33,928 bases of DNA from Bacteroidales bacterium (GTDB lineage: Bacteria; Bacteroidota; Bacteroidia; Bacteroidales; UBA7960). Within the stretch, counting starts at the first letter, position 1. Each line of letters starts with the position of its first letter. The position numbers and the translations under genes are program-made. The notes below the pieces were generated by a model. That model searched no databases. It worked only from the letters and a program-made list of their open reading frames with translations, and was not told the origin of the DNA. The stretch lies in NCBI GenBank assembly GCA_003556325.1, contig PWRF01000235.1, positions 1 to 33,928 of the forward strand, given 5' to 3'. Positions 8,185 through 27,668 of the stretch are shown here, piece after piece.

Positions 8185-11088
8185 ATGAAACATATCATCC
8201 TGGTTTTTCTGAGCCTGATTTGTTTTACCGGCAAGGCCCAGATCAAAGATATTGGCTTGCCCTCCATTATCAACCACCCCAGGCACCTATACGATGCCAG
8301 CACGCAAAACTGGTCGGTTACCCAGAGCAGCCGCGGGTTCCTGTACTTTGGCAATAACGACGGTGTCCTGGAGTACAACGGAACAAACTGGAACACCTAT
8401 CCGATGCCTAACGGCTCCATCGTGCGGTCGGTTATGGCGGCAGGCGACACCATTTTTGCCGGCGCATATGAAGAAATTGGCTTTCTGGCTGCAAATGAAG
8501 AGGGAAGACTTGCCTGGAACTCCCTGAACCATCTTATTCCTTCCTGCTGTGATGACTTTGACGAAATATGGAATATCTTTCAGGACAATCGGGGACGGAT
8601 AATCTTTCAGTCGTTTTCCTACATTTTCATTTATGCAGAAGATCAGATAAAGGTGATAGCGCCGGAGAATGAATTCGGTTTTATGCACGATGTACGCGGC
8701 GATTTATATGTGGTTGATCGCGAAAAGGGCTTAATGCTCCTGGAAAACGACACCTTGACGCCGGTAACCGATCACCCGGTGGTATTGCAACATGAAATTG
8801 CCTGCATAATGCCCATGAGCAGGGGTGACTTGCTGATTGGAACATCCAGCGAAGGTTTTTTCATGTGGGACGGTGAGGAGTTATCACCCTGGGACAATCC
8901 GGTCAATGAGCAGCTAAAGCAGTACAGTGTCTATTCCGGCATCAGGCTGTCCGACAACACTTATGCCATCGGTACCATCAGCAACGGGGTCTATATTACC
9001 GACGCCGCGGGAAATTTGTTGCAGCATGTAAACCGGTCAAAAGGCCTGCAGAACAATACGGTGCTGGCATTATTTGAAGACCGGAAAAACAATTTGTGGA
9101 TGGCACTGGACAATGGCATCGACTACATCGAGGTCAATTCGCCTTTCTCCCTTCTCAACCATAATTTCAATATTGAAAGCGTTTATGCCACCGCAGTTCA
9201 TGAAGGAATTTTATACGTGGGCACCAACCAGGGGCTTTTTGGTCTCAGGCTGGAAGAGCTCAGTAACCGTCGGTTTTATCCCCAGCATTTTCGACTGATC
9301 AGTGGAACGGAAGGCCAGGTATGGAGCCTGGAGATCATCGACAACACATTGCTTTGCGGACACAACTACGGAAGCTTTCAAATCGATGGTTTTGAGGCTC
9401 ACCAGGTAGCTGACATAAGAGGCTTTTGGTCCTTCCTGGAAGTGCCTGACCATGAGGATCTTGCTATTGCCGGCACTTTTTCCGGGCTTGTGAGGCTTCA
9501 GAAAATCGGCGGCAGATGGTATCTCCTGGATGAGATCAAAGGGTTCAGGGAGTCAAGCAGGCATATTTTCCTGGACAACCAGGGCCTGCTATGGGTATCA
9601 CACGGATACAAGGGATTGTTTAAACTCGAACCCTCTGCTGATTTTTCTGAGATCAGGGATTTTCAATTATACCGAGGCGAGGTGGGTCTTCCGGAAGCAT
9701 TGCCCTATAACCTGCATGGGGTGAATGGAGAAATGGTCGTTAGCACACGCGAGTGGTTTTTTACATACAACCACGGCCAGGAAGTTTTTGTCCCCCATCC
9801 GGAAATGAACCGCCTGTTTGAAAACAAAGGATTTGTTGACAAAATACACCAGGATGCACAAGGGAACCTCTGGTATTACACGTATGAGTTCATGGGCCTC
9901 CTGCGCCGGCTCGAAGACGGCACATACCGCGACATTACCACTCCCTTTAAAAGGATCAACGCCTTTTTGCTGCCGGCTTTTCAAAACATCTCCATCCTGA
10001 ATTCCGGCAACATATTCATTGGATCACAACAGGGACTGATCCATTATGATCCTACCATCATTAACGATTACCAGGCAACGGAAAAGGTGAGCTTTCAAAA
10101 AGTATCTTTTTACGGAAAGAAAGAGACGGTGTCTTTTTTTGCACACAGCGACGAGATCATGAAGAACCGCGAGAGCATGCTGCAGCTGCCCTTTGCCTCG
10201 AATTCCGTAAGCTTCGTTTTTACGGCCCCCATGTACGAAAATCCCTTTTCAACAAGCTTTTCTTACAAACTGAAAGGATTTGACCCGGAATGGTCCGCGT
10301 GGGACGAGCTGAACATCAAAGAATACACAAACCTGCGTGAAGGCGATTATGTTTTCCAGGTAAAAGCCATGAATGCCTTTGGTGTGGAAAGCGGCATAAG
10401 CGCCTTTCACTTTAGCATAAGTCCTCCTTTGTACCGGTCTAAAGCAGCGTTTGCATTATATGGCCTGGTCATCATCTCCATCATAGCAGCCAACGCATAT
10501 TACGTAAGGCGCAGAATTCTGAGGATAAGGCAAAGGGAAAAGATCAGGCACGAGAAAAGGCTGGCACGCAGGGAACACATATTTAAAGAACAGACCGCCC
10601 TTAGTGAAAAAGAAATCATGGAGCTGCGCAACGAAAGCCTCGCCAGTGAAATGCAACACAAGAACAAGAAATTGGCGAACGCAACCATGCACCTCATCCA
10701 GAAAAACAAGACGCTTACTAACCTGAAAAACGACCTGAACAAGCTGCTGAAGAGTATCCCTGCTGATCATCCTGAAAAAATGAATATCCAGGGACTGTTA
10801 AAGAAGGTGAACAGGGAACTGAAGAACGAAAAACACTGGGAGCTGTTCAACAGCTATTTTGATGAAGTGCACCAGGATTTTATCACGCGTCTGAAAGAAA
10901 AGTACGACAACCTGTCTCCAAAAGAGTTGCGCTTGTGTGCCTACCTTCGCATGAACCTGGCCACCAAGGAAATTGCGCCGTTGATGAATATTTCCATCCG
11001 GGGCGTTGAGATAAGCCGGTACAGGCTCAGAAAAAAAATGCAACTCAATCAGGAAACCAACCTCACGGAATTCCTGATGACTTTTTAA
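8185..11088 (+). CDS. Membrane-spanning one-component sensor: propeller, triple-tyrosine and LuxR-type HTH domains
   Basis: From ATG 8185 the protein has 967 residues. A signal peptide (MKHIILVFLSLICFTGKAQ) leads to a large periplasmic region with two-component-regulator-type propeller repeats (NNDGVLEYNGTNW, DNRGRIIFQS, DRKNNLWMALDNGIDYI, DNQGLLWVSHGYKG). A Y_Y_Y domain follows (YKLKGFDPEWSAW, NLREGDYVFQVKAMNAFG). One transmembrane helix lies at about 754-772, then a coiled coil, then a LuxR-like helix-turn-helix at about 910-955 (LSPKELRLCAYLRMNLATKE and ISRYRLRKKM). It lacks histidine kinase and receiver domains, so it would couple periplasmic ligand binding directly to DNA binding. Its place before the glucan locus suggests it senses beta-glucan oligosaccharides and controls the genes from 11380. 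A GTG at 8170 would add five residues and weaken the signal peptide, so ATG is preferred. Confidence 0.9.
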   Translation: MKHIILVFLSLICFTGKAQIKDIGLPSIINHPRHLYDASTQNWSVTQSSRGFLYFGNNDGVLEYNGTNWNTYPMPNGSIVRSVMAAGDTIFAGAYEEIGFLAANEEGRLAWNSLNHLIPSCCDDFDEIWNIFQDNRGRIIFQSFSYIFIYAEDQIKVIAPENEFGFMHDVRGDLYVVDREKGLMLLENDTLTPVTDHPVVLQHEIACIMPMSRGDLLIGTSSEGFFMWDGEELSPWDNPVNEQLKQYSVYSGIRLSDNTYAIGTISNGVYITDAAGNLLQHVNRSKGLQNNTVLALFEDRKNNLWMALDNGIDYIEVNSPFSLLNHNFNIESVYATAVHEGILYVGTNQGLFGLRLEELSNRRFYPQHFRLISGTEGQVWSLEIIDNTLLCGHNYGSFQIDGFEAHQVADIRGFWSFLEVPDHEDLAIAGTFSGLVRLQKIGGRWYLLDEIKGFRESSRHIFLDNQGLLWVSHGYKGLFKLEPSADFSEIRDFQLYRGEVGLPEALPYNLHGVNGEMVVSTREWFFTYNHGQEVFVPHPEMNRLFENKGFVDKIHQDAQGNLWYYTYEFMGLLRRLEDGTYRDITTPFKRINAFLLPAFQNISILNSGNIFIGSQQGLIHYDPTIINDYQATEKVSFQKVSFYGKKETVSFFAHSDEIMKNRESMLQLPFASNSVSFVFTAPMYENPFSTSFSYKLKGFDPEWSAWDELNIKEYTNLREGDYVFQVKAMNAFGVESGISAFHFSISPPLYRSKAAFALYGLVIISIIAANAYYVRRRILRIRQREKIRHEKRLARREHIFKEQTALSEKEIMELRNESLASEMQHKNKKLANATMHLIQKNKTLTNLKNDLNKLLKSIPADHPEKMNIQGLLKKVNRELKNEKHWELFNSYFDEVHQDFITRLKEKYDNLSPKELRLCAYLRMNLATKEIAPLMNISIRGVEISRYRLRKKMQLNQETNLTEFLMTF

Positions 11089-11379: not shown

Positions 11380-12876
11380 ATGAAAAAATCACAAAAACAC
11401 AAGTTTTTTAAACTTGCCATGTTTCTTTTAGCCATTACAGGTATGCTTGCATTTCATGCCTGTAGTTCGGATGACGATCCCGAGCCGGAATTGCCGGTTG
11501 CAAGCTTCCAGTATGAGATCAGTGAAGATAACTTCCTGGAAGTAAATTTTGAAAACTTTTCTCAAAATGCAACCAGCTATGAATGGGACTTCGGTGACGG
11601 TGAATCATCTACGGAGGAAAACCCTACACATATATATGCTGAACCCGGCGTATATGATGTGTCTCTTACAGCTTCCAATGAGGTGGGAGACAATCATACT
11701 TTCACCGAGACCATTGAGATAGATGATCCGGACGAAGCCCTGACCCTGCTGGCCGGTACGGAATACAAGGAATGGAAGCTTTATCGTGTGGGAACCAGCC
11801 TCGGCGTTGGACCTGACAAAGATGGCGCCCGCACCTGGTGGTCACTTGAAAACGACGGTTCAAGGCCATGTAAGTATTTCCACACCTTTACTTTCCATCG
11901 TAACGGCGACTTTGTTTTTGATGACCACGGCGCTTTTTGGGGCGAAGATGTCATTTTTGAAGGAACCGACGTACATGGGATTTGCTTTGAGGCGATCCCC
12001 GCAAACATGATCAACAAAGACGGAGTGGATGTAAGTGCGTTCCTGAGCGGGACCCATCAGTTCGAATTTAACTCCAATACCAACATGGTGACGCTTAACG
12101 GATACGGCGCATGGATGGGTATGCCCCAGATGACAACCACAGGAGAATCGTCAGTTCCCGTTGACTCCAAGCAGTTCAAAATTGAAAGCATTGAGGAACA
12201 CGGCGATTATGACCTTATGATCATTTCTTACACTTATGAAGAGCTGTATTGGGATTTCTCATATGCACACTATCATAATCCCGATGCTGAACCAGAGGTT
12301 GTCGAAGAAGAAGAGGAAATCGATCCGCTGGATGAACTAACTCCCACGGAAATGTTTAACACTTTTGCTTCGGAAAGTGAAGAAGATGTTCAGGTACTTG
12401 TGCCCACTGAATCAACTGTAGAATTGACAGTTGGCGTGGAAGACCCCGCTGATCCCGACGGAACCCCGGTTGGCGAATATCACAGGGTTGCCGAACTATT
12501 CCAGGAGCTCCAGTTCGCGACTGAATATTACATTCAGTTTGACAACTTTACTACCGTATCCCTTGATGTGTATATTCCAAGCGCAAATGATTTTTCAGGT
12601 GACCTGACAAATGAAATTGCGATCATCATTGCCAACAATCATGATACACCGGAATGGTGGAACCATCACCTGCAATATGATGTAAATCCTGATGACGTTG
12701 TACTCGATGAGTGGCAAACCTGGACCTTCCAGTTAGATGAGCCGACTAGTGGTCCCGGAATAGATGACGGTACCCCGCACGAACGTTCAGATCTTAATTT
12801 CTTTGCTATCACCATTGGAGGTGCAGGACACGACCAGGAAGGGATCTTTTATATCCGAAACTTTGTATTTGACTAA
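11380..12876 (+). CDS. PKD-domain surface lipoprotein, probable glycan-binding protein
   Basis: The 498-residue protein has a signal peptide with lipobox FHAC (Cys28), followed by SSDDDPEPE, an acidic stretch typical of surface-exported lipoproteins. Residues about 40-112 are a PKD domain (SYEWDFGDGESSTEENPTHI, then YAEPGVYDVSLTASNEV). Residues about 125-305 form an Asp/Trp-rich domain (EWKLYR, ARTWWSLENDG, HTFTFHRNGDFVFDDHGAFW) seen in PUL lipoproteins. An acidic linker (EEEEEIDPLDEL) leads to a C-terminal beta-sandwich resembling a carbohydrate-binding module (about 340-498, ending GIFYIRNFVFD). No catalytic motif is evident, so I infer a surface glycan-binding protein that holds beta-1,3-glucan for the GH16 enzyme and SusCD. 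It ends at a strong terminator. Confidence 0.8.
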   Translation: MKKSQKHKFFKLAMFLLAITGMLAFHACSSDDDPEPELPVASFQYEISEDNFLEVNFENFSQNATSYEWDFGDGESSTEENPTHIYAEPGVYDVSLTASNEVGDNHTFTETIEIDDPDEALTLLAGTEYKEWKLYRVGTSLGVGPDKDGARTWWSLENDGSRPCKYFHTFTFHRNGDFVFDDHGAFWGEDVIFEGTDVHGICFEAIPANMINKDGVDVSAFLSGTHQFEFNSNTNMVTLNGYGAWMGMPQMTTTGESSVPVDSKQFKIESIEEHGDYDLMIISYTYEELYWDFSYAHYHNPDAEPEVVEEEEEIDPLDELTPTEMFNTFASESEEDVQVLVPTESTVELTVGVEDPADPDGTPVGEYHRVAELFQELQFATEYYIQFDNFTTVSLDVYIPSANDFSGDLTNEIAIIIANNHDTPEWWNHHLQYDVNPDDVVLDEWQTWTFQLDEPTSGPGIDDGTPHERSDLNFFAITIGGAGHDQEGIFYIRNFVFD

Positions 12877-12889
12877 TTCATTAAATACA

Positions 12890-12923: not shown

Positions 12924-12941
12924 ACCCAGCTCTTTCATACC

Positions 12942-14069
12942 ATGCACAATTTCCCATTCATAAAACTTGTCAGCTCAGTTCTTCTTTTGGTTGTTGCGTT
13001 ATCCTGTGATGATGACAACGATACCATTATACAAGAGGGGGATCCCTACAACCTGGTGGTTGACGTGACCGTTGAGCCTGAAGGCAGCGGCAACGTCATC
13101 GTTGTGGCTGCGGCAGAAAATGCCGTGGAGTACGATCTTCGACTGGAAGAACAGGATGAACCTCTTTACACGAATAATACAGGGACTTTCGAACATATGT
13201 TTTACCAGCCTGGCAACTATGGCCTGGAGATAAGAGCATACGGGGTTACCGGAAGATACCTTCGTAAGGTGGTTGGGGTTACCATCGTGTTTGAAGACGA
13301 TGATGTGCCGGTTGACCAGGGCTATGTCACTCCCATGGAGTATGAGGGCTATGATCTCGTCTGGCATGATGAGTTTGACGGGAATGCTATCAATCCGGAT
13401 AACTGGGTGTTTGAGATTGGAGACGGATGTCCCGATCTCTGTGGCTGGGGCAATAATGAGTCGCAGTATTACCTGGAGGAAAATGCCTGGGTTTCTGACG
13501 GGGTACTCACCATCGAGGCCAGGCAGGAGAGTGCCGGCACACGCGATTATACTTCCGCCAGGATGAAAACCCAGGGCAAACAATCTTTTCAGTATGGCAG
13601 GATCGACATCAGGGCTCTGCTACCCAGGGGGCAGGGCATATGGCCTGCGTTATGGATGCTCGGCAACGACATCGAAACCGTAGGATGGCCCAAATGCGGC
13701 GAAATCGACATCATGGAGATGATAGGAGGCAGCGGCAGGGAAAATGAGGTACACGGAACGCTTCACTGGGATAATAACGGACATACCTTTTCAGGGGGAA
13801 GCTATACTCTGCCATCAGGGACTTTTGGCGACGAATACCATGTTTTCACCATTATCTGGGACGAAACCTCTATCCGCTGGTTTGTTAACGACATCGAGTA
13901 TTATGAGCTGCTGATCACGCCGGCGCACATGACCGAATTTCACCAGGAATTCTTCTTTATTTTCAATGTGGCCGTGGGAGGGATCTGGCCCGGCTACCCG
14001 GACGAGACTACCGTTTTTCCCCAGCAGATGCGGGTTGATTATGTACGTGTATTCCAGGAAAGTAAGTAG
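12942..14069 (+). CDS. GH16 endo-beta-1,3-glucanase (laminarinase) lipoprotein
   Basis: The 375-residue protein has lipobox ALSC (Cys22) followed by DDDND, a surface-export-like acidic start. Residues about 35-120 form an N-terminal beta-sandwich of unknown family. The GH16 domain covers about 135-375: YDLVWHDEFDGNAINPDNW at the start, SARMKTQGKQSFQYGRIDIR, and the active site GEIDIMEMIG, where Glu254 is the expected nucleophile, Asp256 the assisting residue and Glu259 the acid/base. WGNNESQYY and the VHGTLHW motif are typical of laminarinases. It should cut internal beta-1,3 bonds of laminarin at the cell surface, giving oligosaccharides for SusCD encoded just downstream. Lichenase-like activity on mixed-linkage glucan is also possible. 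Confidence 0.92.
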   Translation: MHNFPFIKLVSSVLLLVVALSCDDDNDTIIQEGDPYNLVVDVTVEPEGSGNVIVVAAAENAVEYDLRLEEQDEPLYTNNTGTFEHMFYQPGNYGLEIRAYGVTGRYLRKVVGVTIVFEDDDVPVDQGYVTPMEYEGYDLVWHDEFDGNAINPDNWVFEIGDGCPDLCGWGNNESQYYLEENAWVSDGVLTIEARQESAGTRDYTSARMKTQGKQSFQYGRIDIRALLPRGQGIWPALWMLGNDIETVGWPKCGEIDIMEMIGGSGRENEVHGTLHWDNNGHTFSGGSYTLPSGTFGDEYHVFTIIWDETSIRWFVNDIEYYELLITPAHMTEFHQEFFFIFNVAVGGIWPGYPDETTVFPQQMRVDYVRVFQESK

Positions 14070-14240: not shown

Positions 14241-17200
14241 ATGAAAATCAAACATTTACTAATCGCGTTTCTCATGGCAGGGGTGCTATGTGTTTCCTCC
14301 CTGTATGGGCAAACTTTGCAGGGCGTCGTGACGGATCAGGAGTCTGGCATGACACTGCCGGGGACTACCGTGCACATTGAAGGCACAACCCTGGGCACCA
14401 CCACGGATCTCGACGGAGAATACACCATTAGCCTCTCTCCGGGTACTTACACGGTGGCCTTTCGCTTTATGGGGTATACTTCCCAAAGGGTGGAGGTATC
14501 CATAGCAGAAGGCGAGACGGTCACCCGGAACATCGCCATGGAACCCGAAACCCTTACTTTTGACGAGGTAGTGGTGATCGGATATGGCACGCAGCAGAAA
14601 CGAGTTGTCACCGGGGCCATTTCCAGCATTGACGCTGAAGAGATCACCTCCACCTCGGTCCTTCGTGTGGAGCAGGCACTGCAGGGAAGGACTGCCGGTG
14701 TCCAGGTAACAAACCTGTCCGGTCAGCCCGGTGAACCGCCCACAGTCCGGATTCGCGGGGCAGGCACCACCCTAAACGCCGAGCCTCTGTACATTGTAGA
14801 CGGCATGGCCGTGGAAGGCATTGACTTTTTGAACCCGGGCGACATCGAGTCCATTGATGTCCTCAAAGACGCTGCATCCGCCGCTATTTACGGTGCACGG
14901 GCAGCCAACGGGGTTGTGCTGATCACCACCAAAAGCGGCATAGAAGGTGATATGAGGGTGAGTTACTCTTCCTATTATGGCATTCAAAACGCCGCACGCA
15001 CCATTGACATGCTGGATGCCGAACAATACCGCATGCTCATGAATGAAGGCGCCAGCAATGCAGGGCTGACCGAGCCTTTTGACCTGAACGAAATACCCCG
15101 GCACAATACCAACTGGCAGGATGAAATGTTCGAAACCAATGCTCCTGTCACCAATCACGAAGTTAGTGTGAGCGGTGGCTCCGAAAGATCCGTATACAGC
15201 TCATCTCTCTCTTATTTTGGGCAGGAAGGCATCATTGGCGGCGATAAGTCTCATTTTGAACGCATCACCGCCAGGCTGAACACCCGGCACCAGGTAAACG
15301 ACTTTTTTAATTTCGGAAACAACCTGTCCTATTCGCAGATCAACCAGAGGGGCATTGCCAGCAACGCATCATTCAATGCAGCCTATAGCAGCGCGCTGAA
15401 CATTGACCCCCTCACCCCGGTATTCGAAACCGACGAATACAATCTCGGGCAGGAGCCTTATTCCAATGAGCCCGTGGTTACCGATGATGAGGGCAGGGTG
15501 TACGGCATTTCCGAATATGTGGGCGCTGAAATCGTAAACCCTCTTGCCTTGCTTGAAACACAGACCGGCTCAACGCGTGTGGACAAAATTGTAGGAAATG
15601 TTTATGGCGAGCTGGAACCCATTGAAGGCCTTACATACAGAAGCAGCCTGGGAATTGACCTTGCCCTGGTGACCTTTGACAACTATACACCCTTATTCTA
15701 CCTTAACGCTGCCCAGGGCAATACCGGAAAAACCAACGTGAGCAAGTCCATGGACCGGAATTTCATCTGGGAATGGGAAAATACACTGAATTACTCCAGG
15801 CAGATTGACGACCACAACTTTTCAATCCTTGGTGGTTTAACAGCCAGAAAAGCCTTTTATGAAGACATTTTTGGCTTTAACGCCATGGTTCAGATCACGG
15901 ACCCCGATCACGTGTACCTTAACATGGCCACGGACACGGTTTGGCAAGCCTTCGGCGGTGCCAATCACTACTCACTCTATTCCCAGTTTGGCAGAATTTT
16001 ATATGATTACAAAAGCACTTATTCTATCAATGCTACCATCAGACGGGACGGATCTTCAAGGTTTGGCGCAAACAACCGCTTCGGTATTTTCCCCTCGGTT
16101 GGCCTCGCATGGGCGATCAGTTATGAAGACTTCTTCCCGGAACTGGGACCCATAGAGGTTGTCAAGCTCAGGGCATCCTGGGGTGTGAATGGCAACCAGG
16201 AGATAGGGCTTTACCAGTTCGTTTCCACTATGGATAGAAGCAGGGGATACATTTTTGGAGGTGGCAGGGCATTTGGCGCTTCGCCAGCTTTCATTGAAAA
16301 CCCGGACATCCGATGGGAAGAATCTGAACAAATTGACATAGGGCTCGATTTTGGAGCCTATGACAACCGGTTGACGGGAACCTTTGACTACTATATAAAA
16401 ACCACAAAAGGCTTGCTGGAGACCATACCCATTCCGGCGCATGTGGGCAACAGCCCGCCGGTTGCCAATGTGGGAAGCGTGGAAAACCGGGGTGTGGAGA
16501 TGAGCCTCGACTGGAGGCACATCGCAGGAGATCTCAGCTATTCAGTGGGAGTGAATGCCTCTTACAACCAAAACAAAATGACCAAAATTGGTAACGAAGA
16601 AGGCGTGCTGCCAGGTGCAAACTGGGCTGTGGCCGGCATGGTGACCCGTGCCGAGATAGGCCTGCCCATCGGTTACTTCTGGGGATACGTTACCGACGGG
16701 ATCTTCCAGAACTGGGATGAGGTATACCAGCACATCAACCGTGACGGACAGCTGCTGCAACCAAATGCCCGCCCGGGTGATGTGCGCTTTGTGGATATAA
16801 ATGGCGATGGAAGGATCGGCCCTGAAGACAGGACCAAGATCGGAAGCCCCACCCCTGACTGGACCTTTGGGATGAATGCAAACGTAGAATACAGGCGTTT
16901 TGATCTTGGCATTCTGCTCATCGGCACGTATGGTAACGATGTGTTTAATGGCATGATCAGGCCTGACCTTCGCTATACCAACCGCACCACCGCAGCCCTC
17001 GACCGTTGGACCGGAGAGGGAACCTCTAATACCGTCCCAAGATATACATGGATAGATACAAACAACAACAACAGGGTTTCTGACTTATACATTGAAGACG
17101 GCTCGTTCCTGAGGATAAGAAACGTTCAACTCGGTTATTCCTTTGACCCCAACTTGCTTAGCAGGATAAGGGCGCATTCCTGGCGCATTTACCTGGCTGT

Positions 17201-17345: not shown

Positions 17346-18911
17346 ATGATCATGAAGAACTTAAAGATAAAATCAGTCGCAGCACTCCTCATCGTTTTTG
17401 TATTCGCTGGCTGCAGTGATGATTTCCTGGACCTGGGCCCCCTCGACCAGGAGGTTACCGAAAACTTTTACCAGACCGAAGAACAGGCTTTCCAGGCACT
17501 GGTAGCCATATATGACGCACTCACCATCCAGTCGACCGTGCAGGCAGGTTGGGCCCCGTTTGTAACCGTGGCAGATGCCTTGTCGGACGATGCCTTTGCC
17601 GGAGGGTCAGATGCCAACGACGGCATGGAGTTTAACCAGCTCAACAACCACAACATCCCTACCTCGAACCAGCTGGCCCACTCGTTGTGGATCATGAATT
17701 ACATTGGCGTCTACAGGGCCAATCTTTTCCTTGAAAGGATCGTGGAAATGGAAGAGGTTTCGGAGGAGTTCAAGACGAGGACCATTGCCGAGGCCAAGTT
17801 TATGCGGGCTTATTTTTACCTGGAGCTGGTACGGTTTTTTGAGAACATCCCGTTGCTCACAAAAACCATCAGCGGCCCCTCCGAATATCCGCAGGAGCAA
17901 AACACTCCTGAAGAGGTGTACAACCAGATAGCCCTCGACCTGGTGGAAGCCATTGCTGATCTGCCGGAGTCTGTTCCTGCAGATGAAAGGGGCCGGATTA
18001 CCAAATGGGCTGCCCAGGGCTTGCTGGGTAGGACCTACCTGTTCTACAACGGAGTATATGGTGGCGACCTGGCTGCAGGGGACACCCCGGTAAACCAGGA
18101 CTTTGTCCTTCAACAACTGGAAGACATGATCACCAACAGCGGTCTCGACCTGTTAGATAACTATGGAGATAACTTCAGCCTGGTGGGTGAATTTGGCATA
18201 GAGTCGGTATTTGAAATATCCCATGGGGATACACCGGAGTGGTGGGATTGGAATTACCCGCAGGGTGGGAACGGAAACCTTGCGGCCCAGATGCAGGGAC
18301 CGCGGGTAAGCGGATCGAGCAACTGGAACCGCGGATGGTCGTTTGCCCCTGTGAGCCATAAACTTGCCATGGATCTGGAAGATGACCCCAGGTTTGAACA
18401 CACCATCTTACTGGAAGAACAACTCGACGGTTCGCTCACCAAAGGATTTCAGCATACAGGCTATTTTTCCAACAAATACACCTCCGATGCCGAGCACTGG
18501 GGTTCCGGCGGGCAGTTTGAACTCAACAGGACCTGCAACTTCAGGGTGATACGTTTTTCTGACGTATTGCTCATGGCTGCAGAGCTTGGAAGCCCTAATG
18601 CACAGGAATACCTCGACAGGGTACGTGCAAGGGTTGGCCTCGACCCGGTGCCGGCAACCTATGAAAACATCATGAAAGAGAGAAGGCTGGAGCTGTCGCT
18701 GGAAGGCATCCGCTATTTCGATGTCCTGAGACAGGGCCTGGATTATGCCAACCAGGAATTCACTCACTCAGGCATCAGGGGTCCGAACTACGAAGGCGAC
18801 CAACAGATTTTCGACGTAACGTTTAATCCCGCTACACGCGGATTTTTACCCATACCGCAAACCGAGATCGACCTTTCGGCAGGCCTGTTTAACCAAAACC
18901 CGGGCTATTAA
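17346..18911 (+). CDS. SusD/RagB-family glycan-binding lipoprotein
   Basis: The 521-residue lipoprotein has lipobox FAGC (Cys23) followed by SDDFLDLGP, the usual SusD start. TPR-like helices include EQAFQALVAIYDALT, AEAKFMRAYFYLELVRFFEN and KWAAQGLLGRTYLF. The C-terminal SusD signature is present: ENIMKERRLELSLEGIRYFD and the final FLPIPQTEIDLSAGLFNQNP. It forms the lid of the SusC channel at the cell surface and captures glycan chains. The start could also be ATG at 17352, two codons later; both give the same signal peptide. It follows SusC by six bases and is surely cotranscribed with it. Confidence 0.96.
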   Translation: MIMKNLKIKSVAALLIVFVFAGCSDDFLDLGPLDQEVTENFYQTEEQAFQALVAIYDALTIQSTVQAGWAPFVTVADALSDDAFAGGSDANDGMEFNQLNNHNIPTSNQLAHSLWIMNYIGVYRANLFLERIVEMEEVSEEFKTRTIAEAKFMRAYFYLELVRFFENIPLLTKTISGPSEYPQEQNTPEEVYNQIALDLVEAIADLPESVPADERGRITKWAAQGLLGRTYLFYNGVYGGDLAAGDTPVNQDFVLQQLEDMITNSGLDLLDNYGDNFSLVGEFGIESVFEISHGDTPEWWDWNYPQGGNGNLAAQMQGPRVSGSSNWNRGWSFAPVSHKLAMDLEDDPRFEHTILLEEQLDGSLTKGFQHTGYFSNKYTSDAEHWGSGGQFELNRTCNFRVIRFSDVLLMAAELGSPNAQEYLDRVRARVGLDPVPATYENIMKERRLELSLEGIRYFDVLRQGLDYANQEFTHSGIRGPNYEGDQQIFDVTFNPATRGFLPIPQTEIDLSAGLFNQNPGY

Positions 18912-19015: not shown

Positions 19016-20581
19016 ATGACACGAAAGACCTATACCGTATTTATTTCCCTTATCGTGGCACTGGGCGGATTCCTGATGGGCTTTGACAGCGCAGTGATAT
19101 CCGGAGCCACTCCCTTTTACCGGGAAACCTTCGGGCTGGACTCCGGCTCCATGCTGATAGGATTTTCCGTCAGCTCGCTCATCCTTGGGGCCATCATAGG
19201 AAACATTAGTGCGGGCAAGCTGGCAGACCGTTTTGGTCGCCGGCAGATCCTGATGGTGACAGCCGTATTGTTTGGCGGTAGCGCCATCATGTCGGCCCTT
19301 GCGCCCAGCATCAATGTGTTCCTGGTCGCACGCATCATCGGCGGAGTAGGAGTTGGGATGGCCATCCTGATCGCCCCGATGTACATCGCCGAGGTTTCTC
19401 CGCGAAAGCTTCGCGGCACCCTGGTAACTTTTAACCAGCTCAACATCGTGGTGGGCATCTCCGTTGCCTATTTCTCCAATTACTATTTTCAGCAAACCAT
19501 TGCCGACCCCGACCTGAAATGGCGTATCATGCTCGGCGTGGAAGCAGCACCCGCAATTATCTACCTGGCCTTGCTGTTTTTCGTTCCGCGAAGCCCCCGC
19601 TGGCTGATGCAGAAAGGGAAGCAGGAAGAAGCCCTCCATGTATTGGAGCGCGTAAATGGAAAAGAACAGGCACAGCTTGTGTTCCAGGAGATCGATCAAA
19701 GCCTGAGAGAGGATATCAACAAGAAAAAGGCCCGTTTCTCAGAAGTGTTCTCCTCCCGCATGAAAACCGTGTTGATCATTGGCTTCGGCATCGCTTTTTT
19801 CCAGCAGATCACCGGTATCAATGCGATTTTCTATTATGCCCCCATGATCTTTGAAATGGCTGGCGGAGGCCAGGATGCCGCCTTTATTCAGGCAGCCATC
19901 CTGGGTGTGACCAATGTGGTGATGACCGTGGTGGCGCTGTTCCTCATCGACAGGCTGGGTCGAAAACCCCTGCTGTACATAGGCTCTGCCGGCATCTGCG
20001 TTTCTATGCTGATTGTAAGCTTTTCATTCTTCAATGCTGAATACAATATTGACGAGAGAAGCATGAAAAACCTCATGCATGAGGTTAACGAAATGGAGGT
20101 CGACCCTCACCACCTGGCCAACTTATATAAGTTAAACGATCTTCAGAACGAGGTATTCGAAAACGAGACGGCCTTTTTCAGCAAGGTAAGGGAAAAAGTA
20201 GGGCAGGATACCTATAACCGCCTGAAAGAAACCATTTTGGTTCATTCCATTTCCATTAACGCCATTTCGGTACTGATCGGATTGCTGATGTTTGTAGCCT
20301 CTTTTGCCGTATCTCTTGGCCCCGTGATGTGGGCCCTGCTGTCCGAAATATTCCCCAACAGGCTCCGGGGACTCGCCATCTCCATCATGGGCTTCTGGAA
20401 TTCCATCGTAAGCTTTTCCGTAGCTACCGTATTCCCATGGCAGCTCGAGTTTCTGGGATCCGGAACGACCTATTTCATATATGCCGTTTTTGGCTTTTTA
20501 ACACTCCTTTTTGTCTGGCGGCTGATCCCGGAAACAAAGGGGAAATCATTAGAAGAACTGGAATCCAAACTCATTAAATAG
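19016..20581 (+). CDS. MFS sugar porter with an enlarged TM9-TM10 loop
   Basis: The 521-residue inner-membrane protein has all sugar-porter signatures: GFDSAVISGA in TM1, GKLADRFGRR between TM2 and TM3, PRSPRWL after TM6, QQITGINAIFYYAP in TM7, DRLGRKPLL after TM8 and PETKGKSLEELE after TM12. It should carry a monosaccharide or small glucoside from periplasm to cytoplasm, probably with protons. Residues about 340-410 form a hydrophilic, likely helical insertion (starts NAEYNIDERSMKNL, ends near RLKETILVHS) between TM9 and TM10, where typical bacterial porters have a short periplasmic loop. In the locus it would feed glucose or laminaribiose to the cytoplasmic phosphorylase. It lies six bases before the next gene. 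Confidence 0.92.
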   Translation: MTRKTYTVFISLIVALGGFLMGFDSAVISGATPFYRETFGLDSGSMLIGFSVSSLILGAIIGNISAGKLADRFGRRQILMVTAVLFGGSAIMSALAPSINVFLVARIIGGVGVGMAILIAPMYIAEVSPRKLRGTLVTFNQLNIVVGISVAYFSNYYFQQTIADPDLKWRIMLGVEAAPAIIYLALLFFVPRSPRWLMQKGKQEEALHVLERVNGKEQAQLVFQEIDQSLREDINKKKARFSEVFSSRMKTVLIIGFGIAFFQQITGINAIFYYAPMIFEMAGGGQDAAFIQAAILGVTNVVMTVVALFLIDRLGRKPLLYIGSAGICVSMLIVSFSFFNAEYNIDERSMKNLMHEVNEMEVDPHHLANLYKLNDLQNEVFENETAFFSKVREKVGQDTYNRLKETILVHSISINAISVLIGLLMFVASFAVSLGPVMWALLSEIFPNRLRGLAISIMGFWNSIVSFSVATVFPWQLEFLGSGTTYFIYAVFGFLTLLFVWRLIPETKGKSLEELESKLIK

Positions 20582-20587: not shown

Positions 20588-21910
20588 ATGACAACTATGA
20601 AAAACATATCCATCATTGCACTCCTGCTTTTTGTTTTCTCTTGCAGCAGCAATGAGAAAAACAATGGCAACTACATGTCTGAAGGCCCTTCGCATGTTGA
20701 GATGCGCCAGACGGACGGGAAATACCGCCTGTTTGTTAACGGAGAAGAATTTTACGTGAAGGGCGCTGGTTGTGAATTTGGCCCTTGCCACCTGGTGGCG
20801 GACCACGGCGGCAACTCATTTCGCACCTGGCGCACGGACGACGGACAACAGTCCGGTCTTGAGGTGCTGGACGAAGCCTATGAGCACGGTCTTATGGTGA
20901 TGATGGGGCTTGATGTGGCACGCGAGCGCCATGGATTTGATTACGATGACGAGGAAGCCGTTGCCGCCCAGCTGGAGCAGTTTCGCCAGGAGGTTAAGGA
21001 GCTGAAAGACCACCCGGCACTCTTGGGCTGGGGTATCGGCAATGAGCTCAACCTGCGCTATACCAACAAGAGAGTCTGGGATGCGGTTAATGACATTGCC
21101 CGCATGATCAAAGAGGTTGATGGCAACCACGTCACGACAACCATGCTTGCCGGCATTGGCCCGGATGAGGTGGCCTACATTGCAGAAAACTGCCCGGACC
21201 TGGACTTCCTTTCCATCCAGTTTTATGGAGATATCATGAACCTGCCGCAGCGATTGAAAGATGCGAATTATGACGGCCCCTACCTGGTCACCGAATGGGG
21301 TGCCACCGGACATTGGGAAGTTCCCCAAACAGAATGGGGATCCCCAATTGAACAGACATCCACCGAAAAAGCAGCGGCCATCAAAAAGCGCTACCAGGAG
21401 ATCATCCTGGGGGATGAAACCAACTGCATGGGCTCCTACGTGTTTCTCTGGGGCCAAAAGCAGGAGCGCACCCCTTCGTGGTACGGTTTGTTTACCGAAG
21501 ACGGAGAAAAAACGGAGGCCATCAATGTGATGGAGTATTTGTGGACCGGCGAATGGCCCGAGCATCAGGCGCCCAGGGTTTACGACTTCACGATTGAAGG
21601 GAAGGGAGGCCGCTATGATAATGTATATTTGTCGGCCGGGGAGGAATACAGCGCACATTTTGTAGCCGAACATCCGGAAGAACTATCGCTATCTGTTAGA
21701 GCAGAGATCATGCCTGAGCCTGTAGAGCTCAGCGACGGGGGAGATTATGAGCCCAGGCCGGAAACTATCGAGGGTTTGATCCTGTCGGCAAACAATTCAG
21801 GAATAAGCTTTAAGGCCCCGGAGGATGAGGGTGCCTATCGCATCTTCCTCTACCTAACGGATGAGCACAATCATGCCGGCACAGTCAACATCCCGTTTTA
21901 CGTGAAATAG
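20588..21910 (+). CDS. Clan GH-A glycoside hydrolase lipoprotein (GH2 TIM-barrel / GH158-like)
   Basis: The 440-residue lipoprotein has lipobox FSC (Cys19) followed by SSNEKNN. Residues about 45-330 form a TIM barrel of the GH-A clan: LFVNGEEFYVKGAG, GGNSFRTWR, LLGWGIGNELN with the acid/base Glu153 after Asn152, and YLVTEWGATGHWE with the nucleophile Glu236. A C-terminal Ig-like beta domain follows (about 350-440, ending NIPFYVK). The barrel resembles GH2 catalytic domains without the usual sandwich domains; given length, Ig-like tail and laminarin context, the endo-beta-1,3-glucanase family GH158 is a good alternative. It probably trims imported or surface beta-glucan. The exact family cannot be settled by eye. 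ATG at 20597 is a possible later start. Confidence 0.85.
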   Translation: MTTMKNISIIALLLFVFSCSSNEKNNGNYMSEGPSHVEMRQTDGKYRLFVNGEEFYVKGAGCEFGPCHLVADHGGNSFRTWRTDDGQQSGLEVLDEAYEHGLMVMMGLDVARERHGFDYDDEEAVAAQLEQFRQEVKELKDHPALLGWGIGNELNLRYTNKRVWDAVNDIARMIKEVDGNHVTTTMLAGIGPDEVAYIAENCPDLDFLSIQFYGDIMNLPQRLKDANYDGPYLVTEWGATGHWEVPQTEWGSPIEQTSTEKAAAIKKRYQEIILGDETNCMGSYVFLWGQKQERTPSWYGLFTEDGEKTEAINVMEYLWTGEWPEHQAPRVYDFTIEGKGGRYDNVYLSAGEEYSAHFVAEHPEELSLSVRAEIMPEPVELSDGGDYEPRPETIEGLILSANNSGISFKAPEDEGAYRIFLYLTDEHNHAGTVNIPFYVK

Positions 21911-21917
21911 TTATTCA

Positions 21918-24224
21918 ATGAGGTTTCTGAACATACTACCTTTCTTCATGTTTGTGGTTTTGGTTGAAAGCTGTTCACAGCCTGCCCTGGAAGTGCACGA
22001 CGATGAGCACTTCCGGCGGGCTGACAGCCTTCTCCAACTGCTTACCCTTGAAGAGAAAGCGGGCCAGATGACCAACATCGGCCTCACGGCCATCACGCAA
22101 GGCCCTTTCTGGAACGATTTTGACACACTCCTGCTCGACACGGCCAAAATGAGGGATTTGTTGATCAACCAGCACGTCGGCTCCATCCAGAACAAAGGGA
22201 AATACCCTCCTTCGAGGGAAGAGTGGCATCGCATCATAAAAAGCGTGCAGCAATTTGTGATGGAGAATTCACGGCATCAGATCCCCGTGCTCTTTGGCAT
22301 GGATGCCGTTCATGGTGCACATTACACGGCTGGCTCAACGCTTTTTCCCCACCAGATTGGCCTGGCGGCAAGCTGGAACCCGGAGCTTGCGAGGATGGTG
22401 GGCGAAGTGACTGCTTACGAGATGCGTGCCTCTTCGCAGCCCTGGAATTTTGCTCCCGTCCTGGATGTGAGCAAGCAACCCCTTTGGGGTCGGGTGTTTG
22501 AAACCTTCGGAGAAGACACCCACATGCACAACGTGATGGGCCGGGCTTTCATAGAAGGCCAGCAGGGAAACTCCGTGGGCGACACCACGCGGGTGGCCAC
22601 CTGCATTAAACATTTCGCCGGTTACGGAACGCCGTTCACCGGCAAGGACCGCTCGCCGGCCCTCATACCTGAACACTACCTGCGACAGTATTATATTGAA
22701 CCCTTCCGTCACGCCATTGAAGCCGGGGCCATCACGGCCATGCTCAACTCCGGTACGGTAAACGGCATTCCGGGTCATGCTGACCATTACCTGATCACGG
22801 ATGTCCTGAAGGGTGAACTGGGGTTGAAGGGGTTTGTTATCTCCGACTGGGAGGATGTCGGACGACTGGCCAGCGTGCACCGTGTGGCCAGCGATGCCAG
22901 GGATGCTGCAAGAATTGCAGTGAACGCCGGCCTCGACATGAGCATGGTGCCTTACGACGCCAGCTTCGCTACCGACGTTGTGGATCTCGTAAACGAAGGG
23001 AAGATCCCCATGAGCCGTATTGACGATGCGGTGCGGCGTATCCTGTACGTAAAATTCAAGCTCGGACTCTTTGACAACCCCTGGCACGACCCGGCCGGGT
23101 ATACCTATTTTGGTTCGGACGAGTTTGCCGAAAAAAGCTACCAGGCTGCACTGGAGTCCGTCACCCTGCTGAAGAACGACAACGGGGCCTTGCCCATCAG
23201 CAACAACAACCCAAAGATTTTGATCACCGGTCCGACATCCGATGCACTCACTGCCCTGAATGGCCCCTGGAGCAGAACCTGGGCCGGCGACGACCCGAGC
23301 TACGACGACCCCGGGAAAAAGACCGTTCTTGAAGCCATGCAAGATGCCTTTGGTGCCGGACAGATCCTGCATACCCCGGGGACATCCTATGAGGGAGAAG
23401 TGGAGAGCGAACAGCACCTGCTGCAAAAGGCCAGCCGTGCCGACATGGTCATTGTGTGCCTGGGCGAAAGACCGGCAACGGAGAAACCCTCCGACATCGA
23501 TGAACTCGACCTGCCCCGGAACCAGCTCGAACTGGTAAAGCGCCTGCATAAAAGCGGCAAACCCATTGTCCTGGTATTATTGCAGGGCAGGCCGCGCATC
23601 ATCCGGGAGATCGAGCCCCTTGCCGATGCCATCGTTCACGCCTTCTGGCCCGGGCATGAAGGCGGACGCGCACTGGCGAGCCTCCTGAAAGGAGAAGAAA
23701 ACTTCAGCGGAAAACTGCCCTACACATACCCGCGTCATGGCGGAGCCCTGTATACCTACCAGCATAAGGTAAGCGACAAGCTTGACCACGAATTTGGTCT
23801 TGATGGGTTTAATCCCCAGTGGGAGTTCGGCTTCGGACTCAGCTACACGGCATTTCAGTACTCAGACCTCAGGCTCTCTGCCGACACCGTATACACCGAC
23901 GATGAGTTTTCCCTGGAGATAAGCGTTACCAACACGGGTAGCAGGGCAGGCAAGGAGGCGGTGCAGGTGTATCTTCGTGACCTGGTAGCCACGATCACCC
24001 CGGACGACAGGAAGCTTATCGCATTCGAAAAAATTCACCTGGAACCCGGGGAAAGCAAAACCCTGGAGTTTACAGTGACCTATCGCGACATGCAATACAT
24101 GGGTGCCAATAACGAATGGACAGCGCAAAGCAGCGACTATGAGGTGCTTGTGGGCGGCCTGCCCGGGGAGTTGCTGTCGGAAAAGGTTTTCTATGCCGGC
24201 CCTTTCGACCTTTCGACCTTTTGA
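21918..24224 (+). CDS. GH3 beta-glucosidase (BglX-like), exported
   Basis: The 768-residue protein has a signal peptide with an off-consensus lipobox VESC (Cys19). The GH3 N-terminal barrel starts LLTLEEKAGQM and includes PVLFGMDAVHG, WNFAPVLDV, ETFGEDTHM, CIKHFAGYG and the nucleophile motif VISDWEDV with Asp310. The C-terminal alpha/beta sandwich (VTLLKNDNGALPI, GPTSDAL, HAFWPGHEGGRALASLLKGE) and a fibronectin-III-like domain (EISVTNTGSRAGKEAVQVYL) follow. It should release glucose from the non-reducing ends of laminari-oligosaccharides in the periplasm. The last six residues (FDLSTF) and the stop codon are encoded by a TTTCGACC tandem repeat that runs into the spacer, so the C-terminus may vary between strains. 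Confidence 0.93.
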   Translation: MRFLNILPFFMFVVLVESCSQPALEVHDDEHFRRADSLLQLLTLEEKAGQMTNIGLTAITQGPFWNDFDTLLLDTAKMRDLLINQHVGSIQNKGKYPPSREEWHRIIKSVQQFVMENSRHQIPVLFGMDAVHGAHYTAGSTLFPHQIGLAASWNPELARMVGEVTAYEMRASSQPWNFAPVLDVSKQPLWGRVFETFGEDTHMHNVMGRAFIEGQQGNSVGDTTRVATCIKHFAGYGTPFTGKDRSPALIPEHYLRQYYIEPFRHAIEAGAITAMLNSGTVNGIPGHADHYLITDVLKGELGLKGFVISDWEDVGRLASVHRVASDARDAARIAVNAGLDMSMVPYDASFATDVVDLVNEGKIPMSRIDDAVRRILYVKFKLGLFDNPWHDPAGYTYFGSDEFAEKSYQAALESVTLLKNDNGALPISNNNPKILITGPTSDALTALNGPWSRTWAGDDPSYDDPGKKTVLEAMQDAFGAGQILHTPGTSYEGEVESEQHLLQKASRADMVIVCLGERPATEKPSDIDELDLPRNQLELVKRLHKSGKPIVLVLLQGRPRIIREIEPLADAIVHAFWPGHEGGRALASLLKGEENFSGKLPYTYPRHGGALYTYQHKVSDKLDHEFGLDGFNPQWEFGFGLSYTAFQYSDLRLSADTVYTDDEFSLEISVTNTGSRAGKEAVQVYLRDLVATITPDDRKLIAFEKIHLEPGESKTLEFTVTYRDMQYMGANNEWTAQSSDYEVLVGGLPGELLSEKVFYAGPFDLSTF

Positions 24225-24270: not shown

Positions 24271-24284
24271 GTCATTCTTAAATT

Positions 24285-27200
24285 ATGCCTGAAAAAAGAA
24301 CATACATCAACCAATCTCCATTGCATGGGAAAAACGAACAGGTAAAAGGCGTTATCACCGATGTGGATGGTGAATCGTTTTACTGCATCAGGAATTATGA
24401 CCTTATGAAGCCATTTCTGATGAGCATTGTCAGCAACTGTGACCTGTGGATGTATATTTCTTCCCGCGGAGGCCTGACAGCGGGCAGGAGGAATTATCAA
24501 AACGTTCTTTTTCCTTACGAGACTGATGATAAGATCCATGAAGACAGCGGAAAATCCGGTTCAAAAACCATTATCCGTATAAAAGAACCCGGGAAAACAT
24601 TGCTGTGGGAGCCTTTTTCTGATTCAGGCCTTTACGATACCCGGAGAAATCTCTACAAGAACACCCCGGGCAATACTGTTATTTTTGAAGAGATAAACGA
24701 TACCCTTGGACTGGTCTTTCGTTACCGGTGGTCGGGCAGCGATGCACTGGGCTGGGTCAGGAAATCCACGCTGGAGAACTTTACGCAAAAGGATGTGGAA
24801 GCGGAAGTCTGCGACGGCTTGCTTAACGTCATGCCCTGGGGCATAGAACGCGAAACTCAGAGCCTTATGAGCACCCTGATGGATGCCTATAAAGTGGCAG
24901 AATACCTCCCGGATAGCAAGATGGCCTTGTACTATTTATCGTCCATACCGGTTGACCGCGCTGAACCCAGTGAAGCACTAAGGACAAATGTTGTCTGGGC
25001 ATACGGAAACGATGACCCGGAGATACTGCTTAGTCCTGGCCAGCTGGACAAAGTGCGTCTGGGACATCCCCGGGAGCCAGAAAATAAGGTTTTCGGGCAG
25101 AAAACCGCCTTCCTGGTGTGCGACAACATCAGGCTGGAGGCAGGTGAGGAGACATCCTGGCATATCATTGCCGACGTGGCGAAGGATGCCGCTGATGTGC
25201 CAATGCTGCAAGGCCTTATTGCCAAGACAAAGGATATGACCGGCTTCATCGAGTCCAGGTTACAGGCAGACACGAAGAGACTGGAGAGCAAAGTCGCGCT
25301 GGCTGATGGTTTTCAACACACCGGCGATCCCCTTAACGACAGGCGGCATTTTTCCAACGTACTGTTTAACATCATGCGTGGAGGAGTCTTTGAGCAGGAA
25401 TACACCGTTGCGGTGGATGATTTTCTCCGGCATCTTGCAGATGGCAACAAAAAGGTTTTTGAGAAGCACGCCGGGTTGTTTCGTCAGCAAAGCCCACAGG
25501 TGTCCTGGAATGAACTGTTACAGGTTTCAAGGGATAGCGCGGATGACGACCTCTACCGCCTCACTTTGGAGTATCTCCCTTTGAGTTTCAGCCGGCGCCA
25601 TGGCGACCCGAGCCGTCCCTGGAACTTTTTTGACATACGCGTAAAGAATGCCGACGGCACCCCTTCACTGAATTACCAGGGCAACTGGCGCGATATTTTT
25701 CAGAACTGGGAGGCCCTGGGTTTTTCGTTTCCCGCTTTCCTGCCCGGAATGATCGCCCGCTTCCTGAACGCCTCTACCGCCGATGGGTATAACCCTTACC
25801 GCATCACCCGCGAAGGATTTGATTGGGAAGTGCCAGAACCCGGTAACCCGTGGGCAGGCATCGGATATTGGGGCGACCACCAGGTCATTTACCTGCTGAA
25901 GCTGCTCGAACTCCAGGAAAAGTTTTTCCCCGGCCAGACCTGGGATAAACTGAAAGGCAGACACTTTGCCTATGCCCGGGTTCCATACCGCATCAAAAAA
26001 TACCAGGAGATCCTGGAAGACCCGCAGGAGACCATTGACTTTGACAAGGAATGGCACGAAAAGCTGATGCAGCAAAGCCGCGAAATGGGTGCAGACGGCA
26101 AGCTGATGCTTCAGGCAGATCAGCAGCCTGTGAAAGCAAATTTTACTGAAAAAATCCTGGTGCTCCTGCTCACCAAGCTCAGCAATTTTGTGCCCGAAGC
26201 GGGTATCTGGCTTAACACCCAACGTCCCGAATGGAACGATGCCAACAACGCATTGGTTGGCAACGGAGCTTCCATGGTGACACTCTATCACCTGCGAAGA
26301 TTTGTGTCCTTCCTCAAAGAGACCACAAAGCAACATCCTGAAAACAGCTTTGTCCTGAAAAAGGAAATCATGCTCTTCAAAAATCAGGTTGAGGATTGCC
26401 TGATCAATTACCATCATTTGCTGGACAATGGATTCACTGACCGCGATCGCAGGGCGTTTGCGGATGAAATGGGGCATGCAGGCGAAGAGTACCGGCAAGG
26501 TGTTTATGATGGCTTTCGGGACGAAGATGCTGAACTCAGCAAGGAGAGCCTGCTGGCGTTCCTTTCCTTTGTGCTGCGATACCTGGATCAGAGCATCCCG
26601 GCAAACAGGCAGCCCGATGGCCTTTATCACTCTTACAACCTGCTCAGATTTGATCAGGATGCGATACGTATCAACCGTTTGTACCCCATGCTGGAGGGTC
26701 AGGCCGCCATACTGAGCAGCGGGCTGCTGACGCCGGAAGAAAACCTGAAGCTGATGAAGGCCTTGTTCGCCAGTGACCTTTGGCGAGCTGATCAGCAAAG
26801 TTTCATGTTATACCCCTTCAGGGAGCTGCCGGGTTTCCTGGAAAAGAACATCATACCCAAAGAATTGGCAGAGTCTTCAGAACTGTTGCGCGACCTCGTT
26901 CGCAAGGGAGACACCCGCATCATAATAAAAGACCAGGAGGGCTTATACCATTTTGATGCCGGGCTAAGGAATGCCAGGCTGCTGAGCGACGTCCTCCGGC
27001 AGATGCAGGTGGAAGACCCCGGAATAACGGGTGAGGAAATGGAGCGCGTCCTTGCTGTTTATGAGAGCGTGTTTAACCACAGGGCCTTCACCGGACGCTC
27101 GGGTTCGTTCTACAAATACGAGGGGCTCGGTTCCATCTACTGGCATATGGTATCGAAGCTGCTGCTTGCCCTGGGTGAGAACATCATGGAGTTTGCCCGG

Positions 27201-27668
27201 GACGGCAAATCCCGGGATAGCATCATGCCGTTGAAGGAATATTATTACCGCATACGGGAGGGGATAGGTGTGCACAAGAAGCCTGAAGAGTACGGAGCCT
27301 TTCCAACGGATCCCTATTCCCACACACCATCTATGATGGGGGTGCAGCAACCCGGTATGACAGGCCAGGTAAAGGAAGACATCCTGAGCAGGTTCAATGA
27401 GCTGGGGATATGCATAGAAGCGGGCAGCATCGTATTTCGTCCTGTATTGTTGAAGGATGAAGACTTTTCAGAAGAAGGGACGCTAAGCTTCAGTTTCTGC
27501 AATGTTCCTGTAAGCTATAGAAAAGGGCAAAAAAAAGGCATAAGCATCCATTGGAAGGAAGAAGGGCGCGAGGCACTTACCCTGGAATCTGCAGGCATCC
27601 CTGCTGACGTATCTGCTTCCGTATTTTATCGCAGCGGAAAAATTAAGGAAATTATTTTGTATTTTTGA
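24285..27668 (+). CDS. Cytoplasmic GH94-clan-like phosphorylase, probable beta-1,3-glucan phosphorylase (GH149/GH161-like)
   Basis: The 1127-residue protein has no signal peptide or membrane segment, so it is cytoplasmic. The N-terminal part (about 1-330) is beta-rich; from about 390 to 1010 an (alpha/alpha) barrel is likely. Notable motifs are RHGDPSRPWNFFDI (about 437), NYQGNWRDIFQNWEALGFSF, YRITREGFDWEVP and GYWGDHQVIYLLKLLE (about 505-540), and RPEWNDANNALVGNG, with Glu649 and Asp652 near the place of the DWND acid motif of GH94 phosphorylases. Size and motifs fit GH149 or GH161, whose known members phosphorolyse beta-1,3-oligoglucans to glucose 1-phosphate. The neighbouring GH16, GH3 and MFS genes agree. 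I recognise the fold group by pattern, not by alignment; the subfamily and the catalytic residue are unproven. Confidence 0.72.
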   Translation: MPEKRTYINQSPLHGKNEQVKGVITDVDGESFYCIRNYDLMKPFLMSIVSNCDLWMYISSRGGLTAGRRNYQNVLFPYETDDKIHEDSGKSGSKTIIRIKEPGKTLLWEPFSDSGLYDTRRNLYKNTPGNTVIFEEINDTLGLVFRYRWSGSDALGWVRKSTLENFTQKDVEAEVCDGLLNVMPWGIERETQSLMSTLMDAYKVAEYLPDSKMALYYLSSIPVDRAEPSEALRTNVVWAYGNDDPEILLSPGQLDKVRLGHPREPENKVFGQKTAFLVCDNIRLEAGEETSWHIIADVAKDAADVPMLQGLIAKTKDMTGFIESRLQADTKRLESKVALADGFQHTGDPLNDRRHFSNVLFNIMRGGVFEQEYTVAVDDFLRHLADGNKKVFEKHAGLFRQQSPQVSWNELLQVSRDSADDDLYRLTLEYLPLSFSRRHGDPSRPWNFFDIRVKNADGTPSLNYQGNWRDIFQNWEALGFSFPAFLPGMIARFLNASTADGYNPYRITREGFDWEVPEPGNPWAGIGYWGDHQVIYLLKLLELQEKFFPGQTWDKLKGRHFAYARVPYRIKKYQEILEDPQETIDFDKEWHEKLMQQSREMGADGKLMLQADQQPVKANFTEKILVLLLTKLSNFVPEAGIWLNTQRPEWNDANNALVGNGASMVTLYHLRRFVSFLKETTKQHPENSFVLKKEIMLFKNQVEDCLINYHHLLDNGFTDRDRRAFADEMGHAGEEYRQGVYDGFRDEDAELSKESLLAFLSFVLRYLDQSIPANRQPDGLYHSYNLLRFDQDAIRINRLYPMLEGQAAILSSGLLTPEENLKLMKALFASDLWRADQQSFMLYPFRELPGFLEKNIIPKELAESSELLRDLVRKGDTRIIIKDQEGLYHFDAGLRNARLLSDVLRQMQVEDPGITGEEMERVLAVYESVFNHRAFTGRSGSFYKYEGLGSIYWHMVSKLLLALGENIMEFARDGKSRDSIMPLKEYYYRIREGIGVHKKPEEYGAFPTDPYSHTPSMMGVQQPGMTGQVKEDILSRFNELGICIEAGSIVFRPVLLKDEDFSEEGTLSFSFCNVPVSYRKGQKKGISIHWKEEGREALTLESAGIPADVSASVFYRSGKIKEIILYF

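Follow-up and report, generated by a model that had tools for sequence, protein, structure and literature searches.

Beta-1,3-glucan phosphorylases of glycoside hydrolase family GH149 were reported in Bacteroidetes glucan loci in 2018, where the majority mapped to polysaccharide utilization loci (PULs) and CAZyme clusters; GH3 and/or GH30_1 and GH17 and/or GH16 were common features of these PULs (PMC5827456). GH149-bearing laminarin loci have been described in Formosa (PMC6246565), Muricauda (PMC13188888) and bloom bacteria (PMC10108472, PMC10877868), and the "variant-1" laminarin PULs include GH158 beside GH149 (PMC10877868). Here we analysed a locus of this kind on contig PWRF01000235.1 (33,928 nucleotides, hereafter the window), a whole contig of a Bacteroidales genome (GCA_003556325.1; 2.81 Mb, 86% complete; our contig C101). 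The locus belongs, as a well-formed example, to the known class of beta-1,3-glucan loci with GH149, in a less described version with GH158 and a sugar porter of the SP family. Judging from the families, active-site residues, gene order and its conservation, it is very probably a PUL for a laminarin-like beta-1,3-glucan ending in cytoplasmic phosphorolysis by GH149.

The original prediction, made from the sequence, had proposed a complete beta-1,3-glucan locus and regarded its mixture of outer hydrolysis and inner phosphorolysis as less common than fully hydrolytic laminarin loci. The emphasis on unusualness was not upheld. GH149-bearing loci of this mixed type are already described and not rare: they are in print (PMC5827456, PMC6246565, PMC13188888, PMC10877868), and of 395 Bacteroidota genomes, including the window's own, 70 contained GH149 (E up to 1e-60) and 46 contained GH158 (E up to 1e-30).

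Genes and enzyme families of the locus

The nine genes named in the original prediction were all recovered as open frames with family matches, all on the + strand, between positions 8170 and 27668. The last of them (24285..27668, +) encodes the predicted GH149 beta-1,3-glucan phosphorylase. It matched the NCBIfam equivalog NF058639 over residues 17-1125 with 1488 bits (cut-off 1150) and the solved phosphorylase 6hq6 with 1100 bits. The frame begins MPEKRTYINQ and has no signal peptide by eye; the signal-less phosphorylase-like protein of the prediction is a GH149 enzyme, and it is probably cytoplasmic. All of the catalytic residues were present in the alignment with 6hq6: WND in RPEWNDANN, RD in GNWRDIF, Glu951 in KYEGLGS and His959 in IYWHMVSK, the numbering being that of PMC6771811 (chain numbers minus 19), where WND, RD, the phosphate-recognition His959 and Glu951 are named as active-site residues. 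At the surface binding site of Pro_7066, E990 and Y993 were kept and E994 was replaced by Arg; this site is less conserved in distant bacterial GH149 members (PMC6771811). Among the 80 GH149 relatives kept, the nearest were all from Bacteroidales bins, namely B1Sed10_143R1 (82% identity), CSSed165cm_555 (61%) and CSSed10_38 (60%), and the other 77 shared 44-48% identity with the window enzyme. From their names, we take these three bins to be soda-lake sediment metagenomes.

Family assignment placed the accompanying enzymes, like GH149, in beta-1,3-glucan families, as had been proposed. The GH16 lipoprotein (12942..14069, +) is of the laminarinase type, carries the predicted ExDxxE motif as EIDIME, and matched the solved structures 4dfs (258.7 bits) and 3azx Laminarinase (258.2 bits). 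The GH3 lipoprotein beta-glucosidase (21918..24224, +) contains PF00933, PF01915 and an Fn3-like domain; its closest solved relatives were 5jp0 (BoGH3B) and 8va3, and its SDW aligns with TDW of BoGH3B, a motif in which the Asp is presumably the nucleophile. The protein described earlier as a clan GH-A lipoprotein (20588..21910, +) belongs to GH158, an endo-beta-1,3-glucanase family: among solved structures it scored highest against 9oro (299.6 bits), which is named GH158, and next against 6pal (266 bits). In the alignment with 9oro, its acid/base lies in GNELN and its nucleophile in LVTEWG, the roles of these residues being those given in PMC7157763. A second GH16 lipoprotein (3493-4374, +) with an EIDVIE motif, weakly laminarinase-like (67.9 bits to ULam111), sits outside the operon and precedes a gene for an ECF sigma factor (4574-5140); it perhaps acts on the same substrate.

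Adjoining SusC-like and SusD-like genes, by which a PUL is recognized, were present: a SusC/RagA TonB-dependent outer-membrane transporter (14241..17339, +; TIGR04056, 870.7 bits, cut-off 368) and a SusD-like lipoprotein (17346..18911, +) with a family match and, by eye, a lipoprotein-like signal. Upstream of GH16 lies a PKD lipoprotein (11380..12876, +), assigned by Pfam, which is a candidate surface glycan-binding protein; its lipoprotein-like signal, read by eye, includes FHAC-SSDDD, and it is weakly similar to 7kv5 ('PKD domain protein'; 41 bits, residues 9-178). Lipoprotein-like signals were also seen by eye at the start of GH16, GH158 and GH3. Acid-rich residues after the lipobox Cys are a surface-export signal in Bacteroidetes. 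Such a stretch directly follows the Cys in GH16, SusD and the PKD protein, and less so in GH158 and GH3, which suggests that the former three are probably at the surface.

The eight genes PKD through GH149 are separated by gaps of 6-171 bases and therefore likely form one operon; 291 bases lie 5' of PKD and 247 bases 3' of GH149. The order SusC-SusD-MFS-GH158-GH3-GH149, in which MFS denotes the major facilitator superfamily porter, was conserved in the relative loci L002 and L055. The ninth gene, at the 5' end (8170..11088, +), encodes a propeller sensor-regulator with Reg_prop repeats, Y_Y_Y and a C-terminal LuxR/GerE helix-turn-helix by Pfam. The start given earlier for it, 8185, is indeed an in-frame ATG, but the frame is called from a GTG at 8170. 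Pfam found neither a histidine kinase nor a receiver domain in this sensor, and a hybrid two-component system (HTCS) was ruled out on that ground.

These features are consistent with the following route. The surface lipoproteins SusD, PKD protein and GH16 would bind and cut the glucan, and SusCD would take the oligosaccharides into the periplasm, where the GH158 endo-glucanase and the GH3 exo-glucosidase would trim them. The SP porter would move the products, oligosaccharides rather than just glucose, across the inner membrane, and in the cytoplasm GH149 would use phosphate to split oligosaccharides, the resulting glucose-1-phosphate being handed to glycolysis by a phosphohexomutase. The ATP saving named in the original prediction would follow from the reaction chemistry of phosphorolysis.

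Porter types near GH149 and GH158

The porter gene of the locus (19016..20581, +) encodes an SP-family (XylE/GLUT-like) MFS sugar porter (TIGR00879, 381 bits, cut-off 238), whose closest solved relatives were XylE, GlcP and GLUT-type hexose carriers. To place it among glucan loci, we surveyed the neighbourhoods of GH158 and GH149 in 100 fetched regions, the window excluded, with genes within 8 kb counted as neighbours; genome G104 gave two GH149 fragments, which were counted as two regions. An SP, MFS_2 or SSF porter was found near GH149 in 66 of 70 regions, and three of the four misses were cut by contig ends. The type of porter differed with the presence of GH158. MFS_2 porters were found in 48 of the 50 GH149 regions without GH158 (two of these also had an SP porter), and SP porters in 18 of the 20 regions with GH158 (two of these also had MFS_2), the remaining two being cut by the contig start. 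The MFS_2 threshold was 60 bits; at 120 bits or more, 42 of the 50 regions retained a match, and the six regions with a best MFS_2 score below 150 bits were all MFS_2 by Pfam (339-371 bits). The Fisher value of 6e-9 for this survey overstates the case, because related species are not independent.

From the side of GH158, SP porters were found near 20 of 24 copies with GH149 nearby, compared with 2 of 30 without it, many of the 30 being distant homologues. SP porter and GH158 occurred together in 11 of the 80 named GH149 loci kept, with Bacteroidales, Flavobacteriaceae, Cyclobacteriaceae and a Limisphaerales bin among them. Eudoraea chungangensis KCTC 42048 (L015) is a named strain that bears the SP porter, GH158 and GH149 together. 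Porter types are thus exchanged at GH149, and this suggests, on moderate evidence from related genomes, that the porter serves the phosphorylase. Given this co-occurrence of genes, import of oligosaccharides by the SP porter is plausible. Our searches of open-licence PubMed Central papers turned up no description of an SP-for-MFS_2 swap. In four GH149 regions (L042, L065, L144 and L150) an SP porter and an MFS_2-group porter occur together; these regions would be useful to separate the substrates of the two porters.

Compared with its solved relatives, the window porter contains about 70 extra residues at 341-416, which the XylE alignment places in the presumed loop between transmembrane helices 9 and 10 (TM9-TM10). 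We compared residues across 59 SP porters from long loci only, 35 of them within 4.5 kb of GH149. In window numbering, D24, R106, Q141, Q263, Q264, N269, G435 and W439 were kept in all 35 GH149-linked porters and N300 in 32, and the window porter has Asn-Ser where XylE has Gln415-Trp416. The loop insert is present in all of the 35 but also in 12 of the 22 other SP porters; the Asn-Ser pair was found in others too, and a GH149-specific porter signature was rejected. Three of the 12 (L021, L288 and L289) lie further off in GH149-bearing regions, and two (L279 and L280) have a GH3 gene nearby, in regions where GH149 was the only phosphorylase looked for. Since the insert also occurs in porters of other glycan loci, it marks a subfamily and not a substrate, and this subfamily also serves other glycan loci. 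In the porter tree, the window porter grouped with those of L002 and L042 (100/99); group counts from the tree were left unused, as many unlinked porters had been dropped as identical to left-out short loci.

Downstream metabolism

The genome contains three matches to the PGM/PMM superfamily. No ROK or Glk glucokinase was found in this genome, in a search limited to these two types; they may be truly absent or fall in the missing part of the 86% complete assembly. A Hexokinase_1 search was uninformative, since it gave no match in any of 14 control genomes. Among 19 genomes of the genus, own included, eight had a ROK match and one a Glk match; among the six that were at least 90% complete, three (G402, G407 and G409; 95-96% complete) had neither. 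Should the organism be unable to phosphorylate free glucose, the role of phosphorolysis would go beyond energy saving.

Alternative explanations

A more specific proposal can be made from these data: the insert-bearing SP porter would be a proton-driven laminari-oligosaccharide carrier, replacing MFS_2 in an SP porter-GH158-GH149 cassette spread over many Bacteroidota families, and phosphorolysis would be the main entry of glucan carbon to glycolysis in this genome, possibly one without glucokinase. We regard this proposal, taken as a whole, as doubtful. If the porter does carry oligosaccharides, it would name a laminari-oligosaccharide importer in GH158-type loci, and the energy saving by phosphorolysis could be measured.

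Several points weigh against oligosaccharide import followed by phosphorolysis. The operon itself encodes a periplasmic GH3, which would use up oligosaccharides before they could be imported, and GH3 was found within 8 kb in just 16 of 70 GH149 regions. When the comparison was restricted to GH158 copies at least 50% identical to that of the window, SP porters were found in 18 of 20 with GH149 and 2 of 5 without (Fisher 0.04), and 4 of the 30 GH149-less copies lie on contigs below 7 kb, where neighbours are not visible. Insert-bearing SP porters were also located near GH43 and GH2 (L281 and L282) or GH127 (L287), in regions that yielded no GH149. The residues aligned with XylE Q168, Q288, Q289, N294, G388 and W392, which we take to be hexose-site residues, were kept in all 35 GH149-linked SP porters. 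Finally, the best PGM/PMM match (578 amino acids; the sole one scanned) scored below every NCBIfam equivalog cut-off.

The strongest alternative is that the SP porter is a glucose or hexose carrier and takes up the glucose freed by GH158 and GH3, with the oligosaccharides for GH149 entering elsewhere, for example through a GPH/sucrose-symporter-like MFS protein whose gene lies on contig C171 of the same genome. Glucose uptake is a live rival because the porter keeps the hexose-site residues and its subfamily occurs in loci without GH149, and we consider it quite possible; the nearest solved relatives of the porter are hexose carriers, and where GH158 is absent GH149 is usually accompanied by MFS_2. 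However, the SP porter tracks GH149 more than GH158 alone, also among the close relatives of the window GH158, the genome encodes another SP porter, which lacks the long insert and could serve glucose, and the glucokinases sought for free glucose were not found. Either the second SP porter or the GPH-like porter could carry glucose or oligosaccharides.

The target might instead be a mixed-linkage beta-1,3/1,4-glucan or a fungal or yeast beta-glucan, for which GH16, GH158 and GH3 are broad enough. Laminarin bears beta-1,6 branches, yet Pfam scans of 20 window frames gave no GH30. In addition, the GH16 of the related Bacteroides uniformis locus has activity on laminarin, on yeast glucan and on mixed-linkage glucan from barley (PMC7157763). 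GH158 and GH149, on the other hand, indicate beta-1,3 backbones, and the GH149 enzymes that have been characterized are active on beta-1,3-glucosyl linkages (PMC5827456, PMC6484121). We consider a target other than laminarin unlikely. A mainly synthetic GH149, building a beta-1,3-glucan store from glucose-1-phosphate, is highly improbable: the reaction can run both ways, and reverse phosphorolysis served to measure acceptor use (PMC5827456), but the gene stands last in a row of genes for glucan degradation and glycan import, like its counterparts elsewhere.

Neighbouring genes and non-coding features

Downstream of GH149, after the gap of 247 bases, lies an aldo/keto reductase of the L-glyceraldehyde 3-phosphate reductase subfamily (27916..28905, +). 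Its membership in the locus is uncertain; a reductase of this kind is likewise found downstream of GH149 in the relative L002. Between GH149 and the reductase we found a perfect 13-base inverted repeat (27732-27744 and 27820-27832, 75 bases apart), with no further copy in the window. The Bacteroidetes-type promoter consensus is TTG...TAnnTTTG; it was absent from the six stretches scanned, including the gap before PKD, and a lone -7-like match was located at 27660. The window contained no Rfam match at gathering score and no tRNA. Further from the locus are a pyridine nucleotide-disulphide oxidoreductase (29101-30588, +) resembling type III sulfide:quinone reductase (188.6 bits, under the cut-off of 525) and a 432-amino-acid protein (1532-2830, -) without a Pfam match that is weakly sulfoquinovose isomerase-like (39.7 bits, cut-off 700).

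Comparison with known systems

The locus suggests that partial hydrolysis outside the cell combined with phosphorolysis inside, the laminarin strategy known from marine Flavobacteriia, is also used by Bacteroidales, with another porter and another endo-glucanase. With the characterized GH149 enzymes Pro_7066 and EgP1 and the Bacteroidetes PULs (PMC5827456, PMC6771811), it shares full-length homology of the phosphorylase, the WND, RD, His and Glu residues, and a SusCD locus with GH16 and GH3; it differs from Pro_7066 in the Arg at surface-site E994 (PMC6771811). As a carrier, the window porter is like XylE and GlcP in its family score above the cut-off and its kept hexose-site residues, and unlike XylE in the extra residues of the presumed TM9-TM10 loop and in Asn-Ser for Gln415-Trp416.

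Compared with the beta-1,3-glucan utilization locus (1,3GUL) of Bacteroides uniformis, which comprises GH16_3, GH158, GH3, SusCD, the surface glycan-binding protein SGBP-B and an HTCS (PMC7157763), the window has the same outer-membrane and periplasmic enzymes. Its additions are the SP porter and GH149; in place of the HTCS it has a kinase-less regulator of the propeller-LuxR type. SGBP-B adjoins SusD in the gut Bacteroides 1,3GUL, whereas the PKD lipoprotein of the window, with its weak similarity to 7kv5, precedes GH16. The marine variant-1 PULs, with GH149, GH17, GH16, GH158 and GH30 (PMC10877868, PMC10108472), and the loci of Formosa (PMC6246565) and Muricauda (PMC13188888) resemble the window in joining GH149 to secreted glucanases and to a porter of the MFS. 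Among the GH149 regions surveyed here, those with GH17 mostly carried MFS_2 porters, in part fused to GH17; the window combines an SP porter with GH158 and GH3, and GH17 and GH30 are missing from its scanned frames.

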